Source: Agromyces badenianii (GTDB lineage Bacteria; Actinomycetota; Actinomycetes; Actinomycetales; Microbacteriaceae). From it: 64,000 bases of DNA. The DNA lies in assembly GCF_003070885.1 (NCBI RefSeq), contig NZ_CP028913.1, forward strand, positions 1,240,001 to 1,304,000, given 5' to 3'. The notes beneath the pieces were generated by a model that was not told the origin of the DNA, did not search any database, and saw only the letters and a program-made list of their open reading frames with translations. How positions within the stretch are numbered: position 1 is the stretch's first letter; the number at the start of each line of letters is the position of its first letter. Positions 34,187 to 36,341 of this stretch are shown here, piece by piece. The position numbers were made by a program, and so were the translations under genes.

Positions 34187-34260
<74 letters not shown>

Positions 34261-34264
34261 CCAG

Positions 34265-34511: not shown

Positions 34512-35093
34512 CTAGAACGGCGGGACGAACGGCTGCGTGTCGAGATCGCTGTCCCAGATGAGTTGGAACTCTCTGCCGGTCAGTCCGGCGTCGAGGATCG
34601 TGTCGACCAAGCCTTCGGTATATATGTAGGGGCTGATGAAACGCTGGTTCGGCGGGAGCCGGAATACGGCGACCTCTGCGGGTATCGCTTCCTCGCGGAA
34701 CGCCCACCTTCTCGGGTCGATGCTGCCCCACGATCGGTCGTGTTCGGTGTGCTCCAAGTCGATCGCGTCTATCACACGGACCACGTGCATAAACCAGATG
34801 ACCTCGTCTCCGAGGCGCAGGGGAAGGAACTCGACGTCTTCACGTGCGACCGGCTCGATCACTGCGCGGGCCCGGTCGTTCAGGAACATGTCTGACGTCA
34901 CTTGTGAGTGCAGGTCCGGGATGCGCAGGTTCTGCCTACCTAGGGTGGTCCTCAGAATGAAGTGAGGGGCGACCCAGTCGTCGGCGCGCCTGTTCGTATC
35001 TCCGTAGATCTGGTGGAAGTAGTCGTCGTCCTCGTCTGTGGCCGAGTTCACAAAAGCGAATCCCTCTGCGCTGTCAAGCTTGTAAAGCCTCAT
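34512..35093 (-). CDS. Imm11-like (DUF1629) immunity protein, copy 1
   Basis: 193 residues starting MRLYKLDS. The profile fits the Imm11/DUF1629 family of polymorphic-toxin immunity proteins: LRIPDLHSQVTSDMFLNDRARAVIEP, EDVEFLPLRLGDEVIWFMHVVRVIDAIDLEHTE, PAEVAVFRLPPNQRF and the C-terminal AGLTGREFQLIWDSD. ATG 35093 overlaps the stop of an upstream remnant frame as ATGA. It is 13 residues different from copy 2, and most differences lie in the first third. No toxin gene is visible next to it. An upstream ATG at 35111 would add six residues but ignores the overlap. Confidence 0.75.
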   Translation of the reverse strand: MRLYKLDSAEGFAFVNSATDEDDDYFHQIYGDTNRRADDWVAPHFILRTTLGRQNLRIPDLHSQVTSDMFLNDRARAVIEPVAREDVEFLPLRLGDEVIWFMHVVRVIDAIDLEHTEHDRSWGSIDPRRWAFREEAIPAEVAVFRLPPNQRFISPYIYTEGLVDTILDAGLTGREFQLIWDSDLDTQPFVPPF

Positions 35094-35229
35094 CGTCGCT
35101 GAATCCTCCATACCTTACTAGCGCTCATGGCGCTTCTGACGCGTCGCCTGTGTCCAGTGTGGAGGGTACGTGGCACCCGCCTTTGTCCTACTTTCGGGAA
35201 GAGCCGCCCGCTGAGCAGTGCCTCCTCTT
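35090..35229 (-). pseudogene. Remnant tail of an upstream partner gene, copy 1
   Basis: An open frame without its own good start, reading EEALLSGRLFPKVGQRRVPR, then TLHTGHRRRVRSAMSASKV, then WRIQRR and stop, ending in an ATGA overlap with copy 1 of the Imm11-like gene. It repeats the C-terminus of the remnant at 35819 except for a 51-base in-frame difference. Only about 45 residues survive, so it looks like the 3' scrap of a gene that once preceded the immunity gene. Confidence 0.55.
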
Positions 35230-35240
35230 CACCGGTGCTG

Positions 35241-35822
35241 TCAAAACGGCGGGACGAACGGCTGCGTGTCGAGATCGCTGTCCCAGATGAGTTGGAACTC
35301 TCTGCCGGTCAGTCCGGCGTCGAGGATCGTGTTGACCAAGCCTTCGGTATATATGTAGGGGCGGATGAAACGCTGGTTCGGCGGGAGCCGGAATACGGCG
35401 ACCTCTGCGGGTATCGCTTCCTCGCGGAACGCCCACCTTCTCGGGTCGATGCTGCCCCACGATCGGTCGCGTTCGGTGTGCTCCAAGTCGATCGCGTCTA
35501 TCACACGGACCACGTGCATAAACCAGATGACCTCGTCTCCGAGGCACACGGGAAGGAACTCGACGTCTTCACGTGCGACCGGCTCGATCACTGCGCGGGC
35601 CCGGTCGTTCAGGAACATGTCAGACGTCACTCGTGAGTGCAGGTCCGGGATGCGCAGGTTCTGCCTACCTAGGGTGGTCCTCAGAATGAAATGAGGGGCG
35701 ACCCAGTCGTCGGCGCGCCTGCTCGCATCTCCGTAGATCTGGCGGAAGTAGTCGCTGTCCTCGTCTGTGGCCGACTCCACCCAAGCGAATTCCTCTGCGC
35801 TGTCAAGCTTGTAAAGCCTCAT
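35241..35822 (-). CDS. Imm11-like (DUF1629) immunity protein, copy 2
   Basis: 193 residues, same domain as copy 1. Differences from copy 1 include G11E, F14W, N16E, D23S, H27R, T33A, N34S and Q64R, plus a few central ones such as L-R to V-C near 93. The last 28 residues are unchanged. ATG 35822 overlaps the remnant stop as ATGA. A family member would neutralise a secreted or contact-delivered toxin in the cytoplasm; which toxin is not visible here. Confidence 0.75.
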   Translation of the reverse strand: MRLYKLDSAEEFAWVESATDEDSDYFRQIYGDASRRADDWVAPHFILRTTLGRQNLRIPDLHSRVTSDMFLNDRARAVIEPVAREDVEFLPVCLGDEVIWFMHVVRVIDAIDLEHTERDRSWGSIDPRRWAFREEAIPAEVAVFRLPPNQRFIRPYIYTEGLVNTILDAGLTGREFQLIWDSDLDTQPFVPPF

Positions 35823-36005
35823 CGTCGCTGAATCCTCCATGCCCGACGTGGCGCCCGCCTTTGTCCTACTTTCGGGAAGAGCCGCCCGCTGAGCAGTGCC
35901 TCCTCGATCGTGGCGAGACCTTCCTGCACCGATCCGTTCAGCTCAGCCTCGACCATGATCTCGTTGACGAAGTCGATGTTGCTCTTTGTGTCGAGGCCGC
36001 GGTGG
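35819..36005 (-). pseudogene. Remnant tail of an unrecognised gene upstream of Imm11 copy 2
   Basis: A frame reading RGLDTKSNIDFVNEI, then MVEAELNGSVQEGLATIEE, then ALLSGRLFPKVGQRR and on to a stop at 35819. It has no start codon at its beginning; the first ATG is 35956. Codon choice is less GC-rich than neighbours. It begins within ~20 bases of the DUF4190 stop, so a deletion or insertion junction lies near 36003-36024. I could not identify the family; given its coupling it is probably the C-terminus of the cognate toxin or another locus gene. Confidence 0.5.
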
Positions 36006-36024
36006 CCGGTGGGGGCCGGTCGAC

Positions 36025-36294
36025 CTACCAGACGATGCCGCCCCCGACCGAGATGCCGCCCCACGTGAGCGCGATGAAGATCGCGGCGAACACGACGGGC
36101 GCGATGCCCTTGCCGCTGCGCGCGAGCCCCTTGAAGAGGGCGATCACGGCGAGGATTGCGGCGACGATCGAGAGGCCGCCGCCGAGGATCAGCCCGATGA
36201 ACAGCGGGATGGGCATGAGCACGAGGCCGGCCAGCGCGAACCAGAACGCGGCCCAGGCAGCCGGATTGGAGCTGCGTTCGATGGAGGAGGACAT
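36025..36294 (-). CDS. DUF4190-type small membrane protein
   Basis: 89 residues with two hydrophobic hairpins (AFWFALAGLVLMPIPLFIGLILGG and LSIVAAILAVIALFKGL...IAPVVFAAIFIALTW). The pattern matches DUF4190 proteins, of unknown function and common in actinobacteria. ATG at 36294. Codon use is host-like, unlike the adjoining remnant. Confidence 0.75.
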   Translation of the reverse strand: MSSSIERSSNPAAWAAFWFALAGLVLMPIPLFIGLILGGGLSIVAAILAVIALFKGLARSGKGIAPVVFAAIFIALTWGGISVGGGIVW

Positions 36295-36312
36295 GCTTCA
36301 TTATCTCGTGCC

Positions 36313-36341
36313 CGCAGCTCGCAGCTCGCAGCACGCAGCCC
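36313..36341 (+). repeat. Four tandem 7-bp GCAGCNC units
   Basis: GCAGCTC, GCAGCTC, GCAGCAC, GCAGCCC in the gap between the DUF4190 gene and the urea operon. A small slippage-prone microsatellite with no known role. Confidence 0.7.

Follow-up and report, generated by a model that had tools for sequence, protein, structure and literature searches.

A tandem pair of Imm11-type immunity genes beside a probable AHH toxin remnant in Agromyces badenianii

Two adjacent, near-identical Imm11-type immunity genes, called here copies A and B, were found in a 64,000-nt stretch of the Agromyces badenianii contig NZ_CP028913.1 (the window). The locus probably represents the remains of a decayed AHH-Imm11 module, in which the immunity gene underwent tandem duplication and persists as two orphan copies. 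We propose that a toxin gene whose product ended in an AHH (HNH/EndoVII-type) nuclease domain was reduced to its ~48 last codons and that the Imm11 gene behind it survived. This Imm11 gene and the terminal 60 nt of toxin sequence would then have been duplicated in tandem. Since then, the copies would have accumulated differences at a roughly neutral pace, except at codons 17-40, where replacements are clustered, most of them on the side of copy A. The features of the locus are the following.

34187-34263, plus strand: tRNA-Pro (GGG), neighbour of the gene pair
34512-35111, minus strand: copy A, Imm11-type immunity gene, 199 codons; PF07791 28.4 bits
34992-35063, minus strand: patch, codons 17-40 of copy A; 10 of 19 differences between the copies, all replacements
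35112-35167, minus strand: spacer between the tail piece and copy A, 56 nt vs 5 nt before copy B
35168-35227, minus strand: 60-nt repeat 5' of copy A, with one difference; carried along in the duplication
35241-35840, minus strand: copy B, Imm11-type immunity gene, 199 codons; PF07791 25.4 bits
35846-35905, minus strand: final 60 nt of the toxin remnant, before copy B; repeat family D2, first member
35855-35998, minus strand: probable remnant of an AHH nuclease C-terminus (~48 codons); its frame continues into the start of copy B
36025-36294, minus strand: 89-aa ORF inside block 36013-36328; by its sequence, the product is probably a small membrane protein

The immunity gene pair

Several claims of an earlier note on this DNA were confirmed. 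The two copies are in direct orientation on the minus strand, with starts 729 bp apart, and lie just after the tRNA-Pro gene. They also belong to the family named in that note, as both pass the Pfam gathering cut-off of 22.1 bits for Imm11 (PF07791, formerly DUF1629). An NCBIfam scan of the two copies gave no match. The sole protein of solved structure matching copy B at E<=10 is 6a4c, MXAN_0049 (E 0.0043 with the single sequence, 6.1e-6 with a five-row profile), described as the immunity protein of the AHH nuclease MXAN_0050 of Myxococcus xanthus (PMC12077131, PMC12077181).

Both frames are intact over 199 codons, and their candidate ribosome-binding regions are identical. A second ATG is found at codon 7 of both genes, with GGAGG 11 nt before it. 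It may be the true start, giving proteins of 193 aa, because the annotated start of an Imm11 protein encoded on a plasmid (locus L019, see below) aligns with it. No promoter-like site was found for the gene pair. Terminator-like hairpins inside the imm11 genes were set aside and not counted as evidence.

Copies A and B are tandem paralogous Imm11 genes with no toxin gene between them, only the 60-nt tail piece. They represent the smallest possible case of a homogeneous polyimmunity locus.

The toxin remnant

Contrary to the earlier note, which saw no toxin in view, a putative toxin tail of ~48 codons adjoins copy B, and its last 60 nt recur before copy A. The remnant frame runs into the start of copy B and stops at 35819-35821. 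The segment 35177-35230, which overlaps the 60-nt repeat before copy A, matches remnant residues 31-48 at 94%. In an AHH-Imm11 module, the AHH gene is directly upstream of the immunity gene on the same strand; only the ~48-codon tail is present in that position here.

We compared the remnant with two AHH profiles made of four or five hand-picked domains, namely those of loci L011, L018, L019 and L020, plus that of L012; L013 and L014 were left out. By whole-sequence score, the remnant frame ranks first among 984 window segments, with E values of 0.15 and 2 for the two profiles, and the match is located on the C-terminal part of the AHH profile. By itself, the remnant gives E values of 0.11 and 2.2. 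When the five-domain profile is used, the best single stretch of the remnant reaches 2.3 bits and is not the top one, as another segment scores 4.1 bits. The decayed AHH copy of Compostimonas described below scores 1e-11 when held out of the profile. In ungapped alignments in the same C-terminal register, shuffling yielded z-scores of 3.3 with L011, -0.4 with L018 and 2.3 with the Compostimonas remnant. The hhalign comparison with A4 gave the same register (P 0.0056, probability 6.5).

A Pfam scan of the remnant gave no match, and none of 20 candidates from a protein search with its frame reached E<=10. In 60 genomes, the only match outside its own genome was weak (E 0.58), and neither the remnant nor the DNA of the locus retrieved anything of use from plasmids. 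The GC contents of the remnant at the three codon positions (0.67/0.37/0.80) resemble those of the imm11 genes (0.62/0.42/0.78 and 0.62/0.39/0.79) rather than those of poxB (0.71/0.46/0.88). By sequence alone, the AHH assignment is weak and non-significant. Sequence and genetic context taken together make it quite likely that the remnant is the C-terminus of an AHH nuclease.

Flanking genes

No second copy of the tRNA 3' end was found in the window, with up to 4 mismatches allowed in 20 or 26 nt. As there is no such direct repeat in the window, integration at tRNA-Pro marked by a repeat was rejected.

On its other side, the toxin remnant abuts the edge of block 36013-36328, which comprises ~310 bp, i.e. 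the 89-aa gene and ~35 nt before its ATG. The gene was detected by protein in 39 of the 60 genus genomes, own included, in 38 of them over at least 84 of its 89 residues. The block is 88-97% identical in DNA at all 29 loci compared, with flanks that do not match except for one 40-nt match. For 435 pairs of loci, the median longest match is 302 bp, and it exceeds 420 bp in 11 pairs. Past the stop codon, identity falls within ~12 nt, and on the other side it falls 30-40 nt upstream of the ATG, as determined with 28 of 30 loci, two of other length having been dropped. The dS values of the 89-aa gene to six relatives are 0.04-0.20, as opposed to 0.32-0.49 for der in the same genomes. In most species, the block looks like a lone gene present at differing sites that was moved or exchanged later than the core genome, with synonymous constraint rather than recent movement as a competing explanation for the low dS values. 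The ATG of the 89-aa gene is preceded by GAGATAATGAAGC, which is perhaps a promoter for a leaderless transcript.

Distribution of AHH and Imm11 genes

The genome of A. badenianii has no AHH match at E<=10, and copies A and B are its only Imm11-like genes by protein search, which agrees with the earlier description of the pair as orphan. With the toxin gone, they can only be orphan immunity genes or passengers. Using the Pfam profile, Imm11 was detected in one of 60 genomes of the genus and in one of 394 genomes of the class, the own genome each time; by protein, it was detected in two of 150 genomes of the family, own included. A search of ~5.8 billion proteins by a method that needs shared words identified a single relative, P0001, and an alignment query also retrieved P0002 of Compostimonas. 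The Imm11 gene is probably a recent arrival in this genome, since the Pfam profile found it only there among the genus and class genomes; the GC content of 0.59-0.62 at the gene pair, vs 0.63-0.70 around it, fits with this.

The earlier note had also proposed to look for the toxin domain in relatives. AHH was found in none of 299 genomes of the family, a search in which no control genome matched either, and in four of 396 genomes of the phylum. Among five genomes of the class to which genome G767 belongs, G767 alone matched. Of two scans of genome contigs, one gave no match and the other only Compostimonas, and neither a viral scan nor a phage search with an AHH domain returned anything of use.

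At the phylum locus L011, the AHH gene is followed by an Imm11 gene that scores over the cut-off, and at L014 by one below it (18.2 bits). At L012, the next gene has no Pfam match, and the same holds for the one downstream frame scanned at L013. We examined three of the 16 plasmid records with an AHH match; the rest, with pathogen matches among them, were left out. The AHH gene of L019 precedes an Imm11 gene (23.4 bits), and the genes after those of L018 and L020 have no Pfam match. The Imm11 genes at L011 and L019 speak for the proposed module, the AHH genes lacking one over the cut-off against it. In the alignments, the start positions of the Imm11 proteins of L009, L011, L015 and L016 were chosen by hand.

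Other loci show related arrangements. At L012 (203-1438), which belongs to the same class, the AHH gene is followed by a tandem pair of paralogues that share 54% identity, as in the A/B arrangement. Unlike in the window, the AHH domain is intact by profile (40.7 bits) and neither paralogue has a Pfam match. They are perhaps an undescribed immunity family that is also duplicated. In Compostimonas suwonensis (L009 and L017), of the same family as A. badenianii, an intact Imm11 gene (46.1 bits) directly follows a shortened AHH stretch that seemingly lacks its middle (L009, 6500-7250), and a gene with FtsK/SpoIIIE domains adjoins. The AHH stretch scores 10.6 bits, below the AHH cut-off of Pfam. 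This locus may be another example within the family of an AHH-Imm11 module in decay; it differs from the window in having a single Imm11 copy, 24% identical to copy B, and in retaining the AHH motif. Lastly, two Neorhizobium galegae plasmids (L015 and L016) harbour Imm11 genes of 47.6 and 46.2 bits with no AHH motif in the upstream frames listed, and these are likely further orphan Imm11 genes.

Divergence of the two copies

Copies A and B differ at 19 nt in sense codons and at 2 nt in the stop codon (TAG/TGA). Sixteen of the 19 differences are nonsynonymous and three are synonymous (codons 50, 73 and 199). The earlier count of about 20 bases is close to this figure, although it had only two silent changes. 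Thirteen residues differ, the same number as counted before; they are residues 17, 20, 22, 29, 33, 39, 40, 70, 98, 99, 124, 160 and 170. The Nei-Gojobori estimates are 0.0355 for dN and 0.0225 for dS; their ratio of 1.6 is not below 1, but the excess is non-significant (Fisher P 0.59). Under eight mutation models (kappa 1, 2, 3 or 5, each with and without doubled GC>AT), 12.7 to 14.6 replacements of 19 are expected at neutrality, and 16 or more have a probability of 0.08-0.32. In view of these values, the gene-wide ratio is indistinguishable from neutrality. The gene-wide replacement rate does not significantly exceed the silent rate, and we rejected the argument that a dN/dS above 1 proves selection.

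Outside codons 17-40, the copies differ at 9 of 525 nt, with six replacements and three silent changes, as drift would give. The toxin-tail repeat differs at 1 of 60 nt, which is the same rate. The earlier view that the mostly replacement pattern goes beyond drift is therefore not upheld for the gene as a whole.

The differences are not spread evenly. A concentration in the N-terminal third had been claimed, and this is borne out for bases, 11 of 19 being in codons 1-66 (P 0.023), but not for residues, with 7 of 13 in positions 1-66 (P 0.10). The signal is sharper at codons 17-40, with 10 changes in 72 nt (scan P 0.001, for a width chosen after the patch had been seen). A Fisher test of 10/72 in the patch vs 9/525 elsewhere was likewise made after the patch had been seen. 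The local cluster is real. It could result from local selection or from a short exchanged tract, and no donor copy for such a tract was found in the own genome. The selection or recombination with variants invoked in the earlier note are both compatible with this patch, but neither a significant gene-wide excess of replacements nor a donor copy in the genome was found.

P0001 (DCE94_09970), an intact 199-aa protein of another A. badenianii strain and the sole relative found in the single-sequence protein search, is 96% identical to copy B and 95% to copy A. Relative to P0001, copy A deviates at residues 17, 20, 22, 29, 39, 40 and 124, and copy B at residues 33, 70, 98, 99 and 170. Residue 160 differs among all three, and at residue 146 it is P0001 that deviates. 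By this polarity, 9 of the 10 patch bases would have changed on the side of copy A and one, in codon 33, on that of copy B. The assignment is tentative because it relies on a single outgroup at the protein level. The sites that differ between A and B are variable among distant relatives, and at residue 17 the Gly of copy A is shared by four of six of them.

Origin and maintenance of the pair

The cluster raises the possibility that selection altered a toxin-facing segment of copy A at codons 17-40, allowing A and B together to deal with two variants of the toxin. All 10 patch changes are replacements, they are significantly clustered, most fall on A's side by the protein-level polarity and distant relatives are variable at the sites concerned. 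In addition, a preprint on gut bacteria (PMC12247911) reports amino-acid replacements at the interface of orphan immunity proteins. Nevertheless, the gene-wide ratio is non-significant, an all-replacement run of nine has a neutral chance of 0.03-0.09, and Gly17 suggests that the states of copy A need not all be new. We regard such selection for new specificity as possible but unlikely. No better placed is the idea that both copies are functionless leftovers of the lost toxin module that drift along with its decay. The equal rates outside the patch and in the tail repeat, the 6:3 ratio expected without selection, the lack of an AHH match in the genome at E<=10 and the lack of a promoter-like site all speak for it. 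Against it, both frames have remained open with the same candidate ribosome-binding region, the other strain keeps an intact protein, and a single difference in 60 nt is a slim basis for a neutral rate.

The pair might also stem from two separate arrivals of related toxin-immunity cassettes, each of which lost its toxin, following the displacement model for Vibrio cholerae. Such displacement leaving immunity genes behind has been described (PMC5361080), each copy has its own toxin-tail piece, and the spacers differ in length (56 vs 5 nt). However, both tails begin in the same 60 nt with one base different, no homology extends beyond this before copy A, and tandem duplication needs fewer steps. 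We consider separate arrivals distinctly improbable. Decay of an AHH-Imm11 module followed by tandem duplication and retention of the immunity gene is the reading that we favour. In that case, A and B would each probably bind and block incoming AHH nucleases, by analogy with MXAN_0049 and MXAN_0050, and we infer that they may protect against toxins of neighbours.

Relation to known systems

According to PMC12077181 and PMC12077131, Imm11 proteins of Myxococcus bind and neutralize AHH nucleases, with cross-protection down to 46% identity, and the former describes extra imm11 genes beside some M. xanthus toxins. MXAN_0049 and the A/B proteins share the same immunity family. In contrast with the window, where the toxin is lost and the genes are known from sequence, M. 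xanthus has intact toxins, and its pairs have been studied experimentally. Zhang 2012 (PMC3482391) lists Imm11 alongside Tox-AHH and among the families that form homogeneous polyimmunity loci. Those loci similarly consist of tandem paralogous Imm11 genes with no toxin gene between them. The A/B locus is distinct in that it has only two near-identical copies with a piece of toxin tail between them, and the Imm11 list given in PMC3482391 has no actinobacteria.

Retention of immunity genes after loss of the toxin is also described for the type VI secretion system of V. cholerae, in which orphan immunity genes remain after effector replacement (PMC5361080), and recombination between tandem immunity paralogues is reported for type VII secretion loci (PMC9484751). 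These arrays and paralogues belong to other families and to secretion systems of types VI and VII. Imm11 arrays and orphan immunity genes are thus already known, and the A/B pair is a small, recent, actinobacterial case.

The locus is a small natural experiment in which immunity genes outlive their toxin and then diverge. It offers in one place two copies, a third point in the protein of the other strain and, in the toxin tail, a rough yardstick for the neutral rate. Why several imm11 genes occur at some toxin loci is a question raised in a commentary (PMC12077181), and the A/B pair could serve to test it. One speculative answer, which we hold to be rather unlikely, is that codons 17-40 form an exchangeable recognition segment of Imm11, present in a different version in one copy of this toxin-free pair with the remainder alike, and that A and B between them cover two variants of AHH nuclease. 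If true, such a segment would directly explain the presence of several imm11 genes at some loci.
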